Shown: piece after piece, positions 1,694 to 29,951 of the stretch | How positions within the stretch are numbered: the first letter of the stretch is position 1 | Layout: every line of letters starts with the position of its first letter | DNA from: a virus | Virus record (IMG/VR): IMGVR_UViG_3300019360_000030 | Span: 1-29,951 of that record | Strand: one strand, 5' to 3' | Length of the DNA stretch: 29,951 bases | Notes under the pieces: model-generated | What the model was told of the DNA's origin: nothing | Databases searched by the model: none | What the model saw: only the letters and a program-made list of their open reading frames with translations | Translations under genes and position numbers: made by a program

Positions 1694-1902
1694 AGGCAAG
1701 AAAGAAGTTAGTCGAGCGCGCGGAGTTCGAGAGACTAAGCCTGCAGCGCGACGCAGCCGTCTTCGCACTAGCGCAGCTCGAGCGCACGTCGAAGGCGATT
1801 CAGCCGGCAGGCTTCCGACGGGACATTGATGACCTCGAGGCCGCGCAGATCGCCGCGCGACACGTGCTCGACTCGATCGGGCGCGGGGAGTCAGGGCTTT
1901 GA
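1690..1902 (+). CDS. Small hypothetical helical protein
   Basis: 70 aa. The ATG start overlaps the HNH stop (ATGA), and its own stop overlaps the TTG start of the replication-like gene. The N-terminus is basic (MKARKKLVERAEFERL) and the rest is helical with Leu/Ala heptad spacing, so a short coiled coil or dimer is plausible. I recognise no family. Its coupling to both neighbours suggests it is translated with the HNH and replication genes. Confidence 0.55.
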   Translation: MKARKKLVERAEFERLSLQRDAAVFALAQLERTSKAIQPAGFRRDIDDLEAAQIAARHVLDSIGRGESGL

Positions 1903-2894
1903 AGCGCGGCGTACCCGAGCATCCGAAGCTGCACGATCTCGCCGCGCGCCTGGCGATCCCGCACGCGCACGCCGGCGGGCTGCTCGACTTTCTGTGGATC
2001 TGGGCCGCGAAGTACGCCCCCACTGGCGACGTCGGGAAGTACGACGACGCGCACATCGAGAAGGGCGCCGGCTGGACGGGGACACCCGGAGCCTTCGTCG
2101 CGGCGATCCTCGCGACGGGCTGGGCCGACGCGAAGAACGGTCATCGCGCCCTGCTGCACGACTGGCCGGCTCACTGCGAAGACGCGGTACACATGGCGCT
2201 GTATCGCGCGCACCAGTTCTTCGCCGACGGCACGGCTCCGCTCCCGAAGAAGATCGCGAAGGACGAGCGCGCGAAGCTCGCGCCCTGGTGGCAGGCCGCC
2301 GTTGCCGCGCGCGGCGCCACGCCGCCGCTACAACAGCAGCCGCCGCTCTACTACCAGTTCCAGACCGAGCACGGCAGCGTGACCGAACCAAACTCTCCCG
2401 TCACGGGAGAGTTTGTGCGCACTGCAGTGGGTACTGCCCTTCCTAGTCCCTCTCCCTCTCCTAGTCCTAAGCCTTCGCCATCGAGAGAAGAGCGCCCGCC
2501 CGAAACGGCTGCGCCGGTGTCCGGACTCTCGGACCAGCAGCGCGAGCTCGTGCGCGCGTACGTCCGCGACCCAGCGAACGGAGCTCGAGGAGCGGTCAGG
2601 CGCGAGCGGGAGATCGAGGCCGCGTGTCTCACGCACGCGAGGTCTCGAGGCGAGACGCGGGCTGACTGGGCCGCGGAGGTATGCCTCTGGGCGTGGCGCG
2701 AGTGCAACTGGTCGCGGCAGCGGCAGTCGGGCGCGACCGGAGTCACTGAGGGCGAGCAGTACGACCGCATGAAGCGAGCGCGGCTCGAGCAGACCAAGCG
2801 AGAAGAGATCCGCGGCTGGGCGAGCCGCACCTACGAGCCGCTCAGCGAGGTCATCTCCGGGATGCGCGGGCCGCCGTGCAAGGCTTCGTCATGA
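1899..2894 (+). CDS. Phage replication initiator-like protein
   Basis: 331 aa, TTG start overlapping the preceding stop. Residues 1 to about 110 resemble the N-terminal winged-helix region of phage replisome-organiser/DnaD-like proteins (HPKLHDLAARL, LLDFLWIWAAKYAPTGDVGKYDD, MALYRAHQFFADG). About 178-200 is a flexible linker (SPSPSPSPKPSPS). The C-terminal part (205-331) is charged and helical with several Trp residues. This layout, N-terminal DNA binding, linker, then a partner-binding C-terminus, parallels lambda O and related initiators. The linker DNA holds a 13-bp-arm inverted repeat and direct repeats (2389-2467), as expected of an origin placed inside the initiator gene. Replication initiation is therefore the favoured role. 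The exact family is unproven. Confidence 0.6.
   Translation: MKRGVPEHPKLHDLAARLAIPHAHAGGLLDFLWIWAAKYAPTGDVGKYDDAHIEKGAGWTGTPGAFVAAILATGWADAKNGHRALLHDWPAHCEDAVHMALYRAHQFFADGTAPLPKKIAKDERAKLAPWWQAAVAARGATPPLQQQPPLYYQFQTEHGSVTEPNSPVTGEFVRTAVGTALPSPSPSPSPKPSPSREERPPETAAPVSGLSDQQRELVRAYVRDPANGARGAVRREREIEAACLTHARSRGETRADWAAEVCLWAWRECNWSRQRQSGATGVTEGEQYDRMKRARLEQTKREEIRGWASRTYEPLSEVISGMRGPPCKASS
2389..2415. repeat. Perfect inverted repeat inside replication gene (candidate origin/operator)
   Basis: Left arm CAAACTCTCCCGT (2389-2401), single central C (2402), right arm ACGGGAGAGTTTG (2403-2415): 13 paired bases per arm with no mismatch. It lies at about codons 164-172 of the replication-like gene, just before the Pro/Ser linker. 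Five bases downstream is a 10-bp palindrome CACTGCAGTG (2420-2429), then two direct copies of TCCTAGTCC (2441-2449 and 2459-2467) in a pyrimidine-rich strand. With a one-base centre it suits a dimeric protein-binding site or cruciform better than an RNA hairpin. Confidence 0.6.
2441..2467. repeat. Direct repeat TCCTAGTCC x2 in pyrimidine-rich tract
   Basis: TCCTAGTCC occurs at 2441-2449 and 2459-2467, 18 bp apart start to start, within a C/T-rich strand that encodes the Ser-Pro linker of the replication-like protein. Part of the repetition follows from the Ser-Pro codons, but CTAG-containing serine codons (AGT) are rare in this genome, which favours a DNA-level signal such as iterons. Confidence 0.4.
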
Positions 2895-6452: not shown

Positions 6453-6985
6453 GCGCGACGGACGCGTTCGGCGACTTCCGGTTTCCACAGATCGCGGTCA
6501 TCACCGGGGGGCGAGTCTCCGGCGGTGCGTTCGCAGCACAGGAGATCTTCGTCGTGGGACAGATCGTCGCAATCACCGACTCTCAGCAGTTCAAGCTCCA
6601 GGTCCGCAAGGACTCGATCAAGACGCGCCGCGGGAACCCGGCCAAGGTCCAGGAGGGGAGCGAGCGATTCGAGGCGAGTGACTCGTCTAAGATCGCTCTC
6701 GACCCGCATCCGTCCGATCCGACGAATCCATACGTCACGCGCGCGCGAGCCGTGGGGCCGGTGACTGCGGATCCAGACACGGGCGAGGAGCACCTGGTGA
6801 AGGTCGGCTTCAGCGCGGACGTCGATCTCGACCCCGACCAGGAGGACGGCTCGGGTGTAAAGCGAGTGGAGCTCGCCAGCATTCAGGTCGCCGTGCAGGC
6901 GGGCGAGGCGTCGGTCGCCGAGGCTTCGGTGAGCGAGCTCGAGGAGCAGCCCGAACTCGAGCCGGCGCCGAGCGGAAGTGACTGA
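6449..6985 (+). CDS. Hypothetical protein, acidic C-terminus
   Basis: 178 aa, GTG start overlapping the previous stop. The N-terminal third reads as beta-rich (FPQIAVITGG, EIFVVGQIVAITD, QFKLQVRKDSI). The middle has DPHPSDPTNPYVTRARAVG, and the last 40 residues are highly acidic with Glu/Ala/Pro repeats (ELEEQPELEPAP). I recognise no family. It is the last gene before the 185-bp non-coding gap that precedes the terminase, so it closes the first structural cluster. A virion-associated or assembly role is only inferred from position. Confidence 0.5.
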   Translation: MSATDAFGDFRFPQIAVITGGRVSGGAFAAQEIFVVGQIVAITDSQQFKLQVRKDSIKTRRGNPAKVQEGSERFEASDSSKIALDPHPSDPTNPYVTRARAVGPVTADPDTGEEHLVKVGFSADVDLDPDQEDGSGVKRVELASIQVAVQAGEASVAEASVSELEEQPELEPAPSGSD

Positions 6986-7170
6986 AACGTCACGCCCCCG
7001 AAAGCAGGGCTAACTCCGCGTCAGTCCAAATGAATGTGACTAAAGTGACTCAAGTATGCGCCGCCACTCAGGAATTCGACGGGTCCTTCCGGAGGGGGTC
7101 CAAGAGCGGGTGGCTAGCGACCGCTCCATTCGCGTAGGGTGAGGGTTTTCAAAGGGGGTTCCGCTTCCGC
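6986..7170. other. Non-coding gap before terminase (candidate cos/packaging region)
   Basis: 185 bp without a supported gene, the longest non-coding stretch in the window, immediately upstream of the small terminase. It holds two GTGACT copies 9 bp apart (7036-7041, 7045-7050), a repeated GGTCC (about 7081 and 7097) on either side of TTCCGGA, an imperfect inverted repeat GAGCGG/CCGCTC around GCTAGC (about 7106-7128), and GGGTGAGGG near 7138. In lambda-type phages the terminase binding site and cos lie just before the small subunit gene. I see no confident sigma-70 promoter. Confidence 0.4.
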
Positions 7171-19352: not shown

Positions 19353-20564
19353 GTGCCCTGGCAGGAAGAGCTCCGCCAGTCGAGTTACCGCGGCGTCCCG
19401 TTCGTGACTGGGCGCTCGGCGCTGCTCGCCGGCAAGCGCGTCCAGGTGCACGAGTATCTCGGCCGCGACGAGGCCTTCGTCGAGGAGCTCGGCGCGGCCG
19501 CGCGCGCGTTCAGCCTCGAATGCTACGTGCACGGGCCCGATTACCTGTTGCAGGCATCGCTCCTCGAGGATGCGCTCCAGACGCCGGGTGCCGGGCTGTT
19601 CGTCGACACCTACCGCGGCGAGCTCACCGTCGTCGCGGTCCGCTACACCGTCGAGCAGGGGTCAGTCACTCCCGGCGGCGGCATCGCTCAGTTCTCGATC
19701 GAGTTCGTCGAGACCGCGCTCAACACGTTCCCAACCGCGACGCCGCGCACCGGCGCCGTCGTCACGACCGCGGCCGACCAGGCCTCGAGCGCGGCTGCAG
19801 GATCGTTCGAAAGAGTCTTCAGCGTACTCGACGAGGTGCAGTGGGTCGTCGAGGACGCGGAGACGGTCGTCGAGATGACCGCGGGCGCGATCGCCGTTCT
19901 ATCGGTCGCGCTCCCCGCTGGCGGCACGGATCTCGCGACGTTCGTTCAGCACCTGGGCCGGATGGCGTCGACCGCCAAGGACCTCGTGACCGAGCCTGGG
20001 TCACTCGCATCGAACGTGCTCGAGGCAATGTCTCGACTGGCGAGTCTCGCTGGGCCGGCCTCTGCGATGCTCGACGCGCTCGAGCGCGCGGGGAAGTACG
20101 GCGCCGAGCTGATTCCAGTCGACGAGACGACTCAGGCGCGCGCTGCCCAGGCGCGGAACCGCGCCGCGCAGGTTCACATCGTGCGGCGCGCCGCGGCGCT
20201 CGAGGCGGCGAAGGTCTCGGCGCGAGCCGCGTTCGCGAGCTACGAGGATGCCGTCGCGCTGCGTGATCGCGTCGTGTCTCTCATCGACGACCAGGCCGAA
20301 TCCGCCGGCGAGCTCGGCGACGACGAGGCCTTCCGCGCGATGCGGAATCTCGCGACCGCGGTCATCCAGGACATCACAGCGCGCGGCGCGCAGCTCGCGC
20401 GACTCACGACCTTCACGCCGCCGGCGACGATGCCCGCACTCGTGATCTCCGATCGTCTCTACGGAGACACGACGCGCGCGGACGAGATCATCGCGCGCAA
20501 CCGGATCGCGCACCCAGGGTTCGTGCCCGGTGGCCGCGCGCTGCAAATCCTTGTCCCGGCGTGA
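19353..20564 (+). CDS. DNA circularisation/baseplate protein (Mu gpN-like)
   Basis: 403 aa, GTG start 3 nt after the tape-measure stop. The N-terminal 90 residues match the DNA_circ_N domain: WQEELRQSSYRGVPFVTGRS, then HEYLGRDEAFVEELGAAARAFSLECYVHGPDYLLQASLLEDALQTPGAG and FVDTYRGELTVVAVRYTVEQ. The rest is long, helical and Ala-rich with a TYxRA-free C-terminus ending in GRALQILVPA. Mu gpN is a baseplate/tail-tube initiator component. Its position between tape and gp44-like hub is conserved. Confidence 0.82.
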   Translation: MPWQEELRQSSYRGVPFVTGRSALLAGKRVQVHEYLGRDEAFVEELGAAARAFSLECYVHGPDYLLQASLLEDALQTPGAGLFVDTYRGELTVVAVRYTVEQGSVTPGGGIAQFSIEFVETALNTFPTATPRTGAVVTTAADQASSAAAGSFERVFSVLDEVQWVVEDAETVVEMTAGAIAVLSVALPAGGTDLATFVQHLGRMASTAKDLVTEPGSLASNVLEAMSRLASLAGPASAMLDALERAGKYGAELIPVDETTQARAAQARNRAAQVHIVRRAAALEAAKVSARAAFASYEDAVALRDRVVSLIDDQAESAGELGDDEAFRAMRNLATAVIQDITARGAQLARLTTFTPPATMPALVISDRLYGDTTRADEIIARNRIAHPGFVPGGRALQILVPA

Positions 20565-28800: not shown

Positions 28801-29951
28801 CGATCACGCTCCCGAACGTGACCGGAACGGTCATCACTTCCGGCGACACCGGCACGGTGACCTCGACGATCATCCTCGACGGAACCATCTCCGCCGCGGA
28901 CCTCGCGACTGACTCAGTCACCGGAACCCAGATCGCGGCCGGAGCAGTCGGGACGAGCGAGGTGGTCGACGACTCACTGACGGCCTCGGATCTCGCCGCG
29001 AACTCGGTCGGGGCGAGCGAGATCCAGACCGATGCCGTTGGATCGGCCGAGATCGCTTCGAACGCGGTCGGCGACGACGAGCTCGACGAGAACGGATCGT
29101 ACACGGTGGCGAATCTCACGGTCACCGGGACCTTTGAGGTCGATTGCGCAGGAACCGGCGATTGCAAGGACGAGCTGCCAGCGAACCCATCGGTCGACAT
29201 CGCAGCGCCTGCTGGCGCTGGCGAAGGCGCGATCGGCATGAGCAACGGAGTCCTGACTGGGCGGCTGAACGGTGAGGGAGCCGCGAGCAGACTCCTCCGC
29301 CTCGTCGACCTGACGAGCGCCTCGGTGACGATCTCGAGCGCACAGCTTGCCGCCTTCGTGACTGGCGAGGTCGGCACCGGAGCGCTGGTGTTCCGAGCGT
29401 CGAACGCGCTCGACGCGACCGACATTGCGACTGACGGCGTGGGGTCGGCGGAGATCGCCGCGGATGCCGTCGGCGCGAGCGAGATCGGGGTCGATGCCGT
29501 CGGGGCGAGTGAAATCGCGGCCGACGCAGTAGGGTCTTCTGAGATCGCTGCTGGGGCAGTCGGGACGAGCGAGCTCGCGGCGAACGCGGTCGACGGCACG
29601 AAGATCGCCATGGGATCCGACGTCGCCGGCGACACCCTGTACTACAACGGCACGGACTATGCGCGCCTCGCGATCGGGACCCCCGGTCAGATACCGGTGG
29701 TGAACTCGGGTGCGACCGCGCTCGCGTACGTGACTCGCACCAACCCGCTGCTAGGCACCGGAAACCGCATCAACACGACCGCCGTGGCCGGAAACTGCGT
29801 CAACTTCGTCGCGCCGAACGCGACGGGGTTCTCAACCTCTGGAGATTGCTCCGCAGGCGCGGCCGCGGCCGGGTATTCGTTCTACGTGACTCACAACATG
29901 ACGATCAAGCGCCAGAGCTTCATGATTCGCGCTGGCGCGACGACCCCCGCG
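25821..29951 (+). CDS. Large fibre-like protein with signal peptide, beta-helix and decapeptide repeats (partial)
   Basis: Open for 1377 codons from ATG 25821 (GGAGAG site) to the right window edge, with no stop. The start encodes a Sec-type signal peptide (basic SRLAGR, hydrophobic LAGLLGFVCLVLVPAPIP, VSA|AP). From about residue 75 comes a right-handed beta-helix/pectate-lyase-like region (TTTAGIQEAIDQCAG, KVEIGPGDYTI, RDLAIDIEQT, DVDIENVHVG, IYGNTF, IHDNVIL), with several Cys. From about residue 630 it turns into a fibre-like part with repeats such as TLPNVTGTVITSGD and three blocks of decapeptides. This would be a host-recognition fibre or depolymerase-like protein, but the signal peptide is unexpected for a cytoplasmically assembled fibre. 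Confidence 0.7.
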   Translation, partial: MSRLAGRLAGLLGFVCLVLVPAPIPVSAAPIAGNNKGLTSPLNQSLNANGENITGVGELTYDDGQVAEKQAEKVVKLNKPQVGGGTTTAGIQEAIDQCAGAPNDTCKVEIGPGDYTITKTCGQWVTSNSSGSRVTGSGVVGGGAILVAQDKSITIQGSGKFLTRIRWATEFSENSCGYNQSGAQASVLRLDSGSGGGSNQTRKIIIRDLAIDIEQTNTSLADTDTFWIGGIDIGAVGTIDEVDIENVHVGCWEKYQQGRCISIVNLGGGAIHPPRDIYISHAWIEASNTGVWDAFADDLKIANTWLGSVDLSPFSCSPALVSKLDGTFVSTGNTYEFRDQNGYQCGAAQGLQPLRWVHLDGRNRVDDSFGGQWATFTSDIYVVRSEEVSSKFFEGFYVTGYNGATILGNKFICSEDYIESSVSGDNEVNACFVPAGVIKIANANNNNPGDMCASSRPCNVGNVIADNVFWNFRDNSNRFDGGFTTGCIIDIQQPTDAGDNSQNHIYGNTFRIVDTNGLIDTSPLADGFCGGGTHQGGGTDWVKKNFIHDNVILGRDDMCLAGFGIGVGGSTCDVSYDLSDGRLTVADLRATTLLINSKQVCLADGTNCPAGGSGSMSSFFISADTGADGTISNALTLEIAGGAGITTATTGTGNRTVVLNLNFIQAPMLFTWGDGQNTTYQITYDIGQGANNPKKNYNLINAKDEFHVPYTLQANSVTVATTQTGNAALVLPNDSIGAAELGENSVGASELDGGAVETELEGLLDLNELQGAVTDAQVSDVLTASIFVGSGSVTNAIDLATSEVAGNLPIARLNSGTGATADTFWAGDGTWKTPPGSGDVLAVGPACPSGNCLTDGVATTGTELFVFEGVTVDANEYRILVPNADPGADATWTLPTASGTLVGTGDSFTITAGMVFPDTLGQPQIGPAGVASSEIADDSVGFVDVDQSTTVAANPGMAPNDTFFGDGGVVFEGSSADAIETRLTVANPTSSDKTITLPNVTGTVITSGDTGTVTSTIILDGTISAADLATDSVTGTQIAAGAVGTSEVVDDSLTASDLAANSVGASEIQTDAVGSAEIASNAVGDDELDENGSYTVANLTVTGTFEVDCAGTGDCKDELPANPSVDIAAPAGAGEGAIGMSNGVLTGRLNGEGAASRLLRLVDLTSASVTISSAQLAAFVTGEVGTGALVFRASNALDATDIATDGVGSAEIAADAVGASEIGVDAVGASEIAADAVGSSEIAAGAVGTSELAANAVDGTKIAMGSDVAGDTLYYNGTDYARLAIGTPGQIPVVNSGATALAYVTRTNPLLGTGNRINTTAVAGNCVNFVAPNATGFSTSGDCSAGAAAAGYSFYVTHNMTIKRQSFMIRAGATTPA
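28011..28091 (+). repeat. Decapeptide repeat block 1
   Basis: Two to three 10-residue units (PNDSIGAAEL, GENSVGASEL, then a decayed DGGAVETELE) encoded in tandem in the fibre-like gene. Same family as blocks 2 and 3. Confidence 0.6.
28905..29084 (+). repeat. Decapeptide repeat block 2 (6 units)
   Basis: 180 nt encode six consecutive 10-residue units, for example ATDSVTGTQI, AAGAVGTSEV, AANSVGASEI, QTDAVGSAEI, ending ASNAVGDDEL. Consensus is roughly x-x-[DN]-[AS]-V-G-x-S-E-[IL]. Confidence 0.75.
29427..29606 (+). repeat. Decapeptide repeat block 3 (6 units)
   Basis: 180 nt encode six consecutive 10-residue units: ATDGVGSAEI, AADAVGASEI, GVDAVGASEI, AADAVGSSEI, AAGAVGTSEL, AANAVDGTKI. The DNA-level similarity is higher than in block 2, so recent expansion or repeat exchange is likely. 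Confidence 0.75.

Follow-up and report, generated by a model that had tools for sequence, protein, structure and literature searches.

A palindrome and a pyrimidine-rich tract in the linker of a phage replication-initiator-like gene as a probable replication origin

The linker of the replication-initiator-like gene in a viral record of 29,951 bp (the window, by which the whole analysed stretch of DNA is meant) probably contains a replication origin or, failing that, a site to which its own initiator binds. Related genes conserve in this linker a DNA layout rather than a spelling: short repeated sequences (iterons) stand before a tract of short period. The family-wide presence of iterons and tract in the same linker, with helical spacing of the repeats, is the look expected of an origin placed inside an initiator gene.

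The initiator gene and the elements of its linker

The elements concerned, in window coordinates, are the following.

1899..2894, plus strand: replication-initiator-like gene, 331 aa, TTG start (phrog_9474 match and homologous N-terminal domains)
1899..2273, plus strand: residues 1-125, a conserved N-terminal domain predicted to be winged-helix-like and presumed to bind DNA (82-row alignment; AlphaFold2)
2389..2415: perfect palindrome with 13-bp arms and a 1-nt centre, presumed head-to-head initiator half-sites (repeat search and controls)
2415..2422: GTGCGCAC, one base in common with the palindrome; a multi-copy iteron core in the relatives L036 and L154
2420..2429: CACTGCAGTG, a 10-bp palindrome, at chance level on its own
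2440..2479, plus strand: pyrimidine-rich tract whose hexamers start with CC, presumed site of opening or helicase loading (strand bias, 6-bp period, family counterpart)
2535..2894, plus strand: C-terminal part of the protein, whose only family match is to residues 5-95

Residues 5-95 of the encoded protein match PHROG_9474, 'replication initiation protein' (E=1.9e-17), a profile match that gives the function by annotation. Homologous N-terminal domains were found by tblastn in genes of cyanophages, gut phages and Paenibacillus phages, several of these genes being annotated as replication initiation proteins, and this annotation supports the membership of CDS 1899-2894 in an initiator family. 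The AlphaFold2 model of the domain is confident (pLDDT 95.9), and the structures it matches form a mixed set with weak scores, several being winged-helix domains (best Z 5.3); neither RepA_N nor DnaD proteins appear in that list, though they may nonetheless be related. DNA binding by this domain is suggested by the role of the family and by the layout described below. No Pfam match to a phage O family was obtained with the full protein at E<=1 or with 82 N-terminal domains of the family at E<=0.01. In several relatives the rep gene has a helicase or loader gene beside it, as an initiator should: dnaB follows it in a Stenotrophomonas phage-like plasmid, and a DnaC-type gene is found in gut and Paenibacillus phages. 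Among those ORFs of the window that were examined, none was recognised as such a gene.

A preliminary description of this DNA had placed the palindrome, the 10-bp palindrome and a pair of direct repeats at the domain boundary and linker of the gene. All of these coordinates were confirmed in the sequence, and every element lies inside CDS 1899-2894, in the linker between the N-terminal domain and the C-terminal part. The palindrome is spelled CAAACTCTCCCGT-C-ACGGGAGAGTTTG, with arms that are 100% complementary, and no other perfect inverted repeat of the window (loop of at most 20) is as long, the next having arms of 11, 10 and 10 bp. It had been called unlikely by chance, which stands, with a caution that concerns the encoded peptide. 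Arms of at least 13 bp arose anywhere in 30 kb in only one of 60 simulations (first-order Markov null, same length), and with a loop of at most 4 they were absent from all 456 control ORFs from related loci. Synonymous-codon shuffles, on the other hand, gave back the full arms of 13 bp 35 times in 2000 (1.75%), because the palindrome is one possible spelling of the peptide PNSPVTGEFV. Either the amino acids leave room for the palindrome or they were imposed by the DNA, and this null is of limited use since the DNA may have shaped the linker peptide.

The tract that follows contains the direct repeats, a TCCTAGTCC pair at 2441-2449 and 2459-2467, and encodes Pro-Ser repeats. The 40 bp from 2437 show the strongest purine/pyrimidine bias of the window (82% pyrimidine), and the 6-bp periodicity of the tract is moderate, its score of 11.0 lying between the 95% and 99% points of the controls (9.0 and 13.6). 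The GC content of the tract is 0.59 vs 0.67 overall, still above that of many other stretches of the window, and no AT-rich unwinding element was found at the linker. The heptamer CTCTCCC occurs at 2393 and 2405, in both palindrome arms, and again at 2450 within the tract, and the two elements may share a half-site.

The layout of the linker in related genes

A direct search of viral and genome contigs with the full protein returned no relatives, an exact search of viral contigs for the palindrome gave no match, and no DNA-level relatives of the window were found in the phage collection. Only a profile of three sequences (the window, Synechococcus phage Sc-Yong805-2 and Microcystis phage Mae-JY24) opened the family, which proved to be wide in viral contigs and to extend to a few bacterial genome assemblies. 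Removal of near-duplicates left 121 genes including that of the window, 120 of which were anchored and counted, with the 456 ORFs mentioned above as controls. The linkers of these genes cannot be aligned, and the test of layout looked for the same kind of element in the same linker slot, not for the same spelling.

A tract with a period of 5-7 bp, mostly CC-based, is present in the linker of 105 of the 120 family genes vs 19 of the 456 controls. Within the 110 nt before the tract, 62 family genes carry a 7-mer in at least three copies (either strand), compared with 14 controls. The two features occur together in 57 family genes and in a single control, and were recovered in 23 of 55 and 27 of 50 members of two separately gathered parts of the set. 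The repeats precede the tract in 51 cases, with the reverse order in 3, and CC falls on the coding strand in 90 cases vs 7. Tract units approximate to aGCCAgA, successive CC pairs being 6 (347 cases), 5 (100) or 7 (16) bp apart, and the tracts of the relatives are not AT-rich (tract GC minus gene GC, mean +0.006). Successive copies of the 7-mer are 10-12 bp apart in 108 of 230 intervals, vs 15 of 286 in the controls, and a second group of spacings lies at 20-24 bp. Spacings that are multiples of three make up 153 of the 286 control intervals and only 65 of the 230 in the family. Since 10-12 bp is the pitch of the helix and not that of codons, this spacing, which coding constraints do not predict, points to selection on the DNA; the copies in the window are too few to show it.

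The window palindrome falls in the slot where the relatives keep theirs: its centre is 45 nt before the start of the tract, and the short-loop inverted repeats of the relatives cluster 24-55 nt before their tracts. Its spelling is not conserved, the relatives carrying other repeats. Long perfect palindromes before the tract are also present in L090 (16-bp arms), L096, L134, L048 and L154, with or without a repeat array. The window itself has one palindrome and one GTGCGCAC, and no array of at least three iterons was found in it at the linker; the only comparable phased repeat array elsewhere in the window is a three-copy CGTCGAG inside another ORF at 19827. Of 119 relatives, 7 carry GTGCGCAC ahead of the tract, compared with none of the 456 controls. 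As an iteron core at 2415-2422 it is only suggestive, because the window has a single copy and 1.5 copies would be expected by chance in its whole length.

A core CCCG-N-CGGG, considered as an element shared with the relatives, was dropped: its positions are scattered, with 11 sites in the 120 family genes vs 20 in the 456 controls. Several relatives have features of their own. Seven rep genes that lie near each other in the tree (L137, L139, L122, L144, L145, L076 and L130) share an iteron of the CTAAGCA/CTAAGGA type, mostly at a 12-bp pitch, and have pentamer tracts (CCAAG/CCTAA). A CGCGCG run is located at or near the junction of repeats and tract in about a dozen rep linkers, including those of L088, L090, L098, L136, L038, L046, L117 and L121. 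The translated linkers of L071 and L092 contain a VYFI...IKIG stretch between the N-terminal domain and the rest, which we take to resemble an insert of the T5orf172/GIY-YIG type.

Alternative readings

It is quite possible that the tract is no more than a disordered, Pro-rich stretch of the protein, lengthened by slippage of a microsatellite, whether the upstream repeats are functional DNA or nothing at all. Hexamer tracts mostly encode Pro-X dipeptides, with CC in codon phase 0 in 49 of the 56 single-phase tracts, and unrelated viral ORFs often contain these hexamers too. When the search was reversed, only 4 of 138 exact (GCCAGA)n or (GCCAA)n stretches belonged to the initiator family; the tract, a common type of microsatellite, was thus rejected as a diagnostic on its own and is informative only jointly with position and iterons. 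Slippage in a protein linker does not, however, account well for the tracts of pentamers and 7-mers (33 of 104), which cross all frames and yet keep the CC; the pentamer tracts run through every frame and encode KPSQA-like peptides. The marked preference of CC for one strand and the regular position of the tract after the iterons also speak against it, and it leaves the helical spacing of the repeats unexplained.

The repeats might instead be initiator binding sites that serve autoregulation or copy control, with the true origin elsewhere. This is unlikely, even though inverted repeats are typical of operators and evidence for a binding site does not separate the use of such a site as an operator from its use as an origin. 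The palindrome lies about 500 bp inside the gene, and no promoter-like site was found near it; moreover, in most relatives the repeats are accompanied by an ordered downstream tract, for which an operator would have no need. Cumulative GC skew, which had been put forward as a check, gave no signal at the window linker, and no turn was seen at the rep gene of three relatives, so that in these four sequences skew is uninformative as evidence about the origin.

It is very improbable that the palindrome of the window arose by chance, or that it forms an RNA hairpin or a terminator with no part in replication: the simulated frequency given above and a weak terminator-like match on the minus strand would allow it, but the palindrome sits in the repeat slot of the relatives, no T-run follows it on the coding strand and its region has no Rfam match, which leaves a terminator or a known RNA family without support.

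A possible mechanism and its relation to known origins

If the linker is an origin, the N-terminal domain would bind the palindrome, and perhaps the adjoining GTGCGCAC as well, probably as a dimer on head-to-head half-sites. The bound complex might then open or capture the DNA at the tract of CC units, which begins about 45 bp away from the centre of the palindrome; there the helicase would be loaded and replication would start.

The nearest precedent is found in lambda and the Stx phages, in which an origin made of iterons and a tract inside the initiator gene is established (PMC7466680). Their iterons are inverted repeats, four of 19 bp in lambda and six in the Stx phages, and are accompanied by an AT-rich tract. 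The preliminary description had proposed a lambda-like origin, and the likeness holds for the arrangement: initiator-binding repeats and an adjacent tract would stand in the middle of the gene, as in gene O, with repeats in this position in the window and, across the family, repeats at helical spacing followed by a tract. It does not extend to the components. Lambda-type origins have an iteron array, whereas the window has one palindrome and the relatives have short iterons at a 10-12-bp pitch; the tract is AT-rich there and not here; and no homology to O was found. Since the window lacks the array, the AT-rich tract and the O homology, it is not filed as a lambda-type origin, and we very probably have here a lambda-like arrangement with an unusual list of parts, in which the iterons are short and the tract is not AT-rich.

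Helical phasing is usual among plasmid iterons (PMC5043065), and the layout may work like them and like the lambda origin. The iteron plasmids RK2, F, P1 and R6K share with the family initiator sites in phase with the helix and short repeats in the region that opens (PMC5043065, PMC10797057), but they have AT-rich origins that normally lie outside the coding part of the initiator gene, and their initiators are of the RepE/TrfA types, unlike the PHROG_9474-like family. Semi-palindromic iterons are likewise a feature of RepA_N initiators and of the PLE satellite origin, one repeat of which has 13-bp inverted repeats (PMC7145576); that origin is non-coding, with iterons converging on a poly-A tract, and the structural search with the window protein listed no RepA_N match. 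The DnaA-trios of bacterial oriC also form a tract of short period next to initiator boxes and mark the place of strand opening (PMC10797057). They differ in being 3-nt, A/T-rich units read by the AAA+ protein DnaA, while the units here are CC-based, of 5-7 bp, and have no known reader.

A broader proposal, which we put forward tentatively and consider rather doubtful, is that these linkers represent a large and so far undescribed class of origins carried within phage initiator genes, where strand-oriented CC units every 5-7 bp (often GCCAGA) replace the AT-rich unwinding element and are read as single-stranded DNA by the initiator or the helicase loader, in the manner of DnaA-trios. No description of such a tract was found in the literature, in a search that missed most subscription papers, and its novelty is provisional. 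Were the origin reading true, many origins of uncultured phages could be located from sequence by a PHROG_9474-like linker with 10-12-bp iterons and a 5-7-bp tract, and the changing dipeptide repeats that fill the linkers of these proteins would be accounted for. It would also raise the question of how an origin opens without an AT-rich element, and whether the short-period CC tract takes its place.

Other observations in the window

Three GTGACT(N)AA repeats lie at 6976-7053, in a low-GC stretch without a listed long plus-strand ORF and a short way upstream of the ORF for the small terminase subunit (7171), and are a candidate cos or pac site. Near the end of the contig, repeats of about 30 bp at 28989-29500 encode DAVGASEI-like units within an open-ended ORF of 1377 aa.
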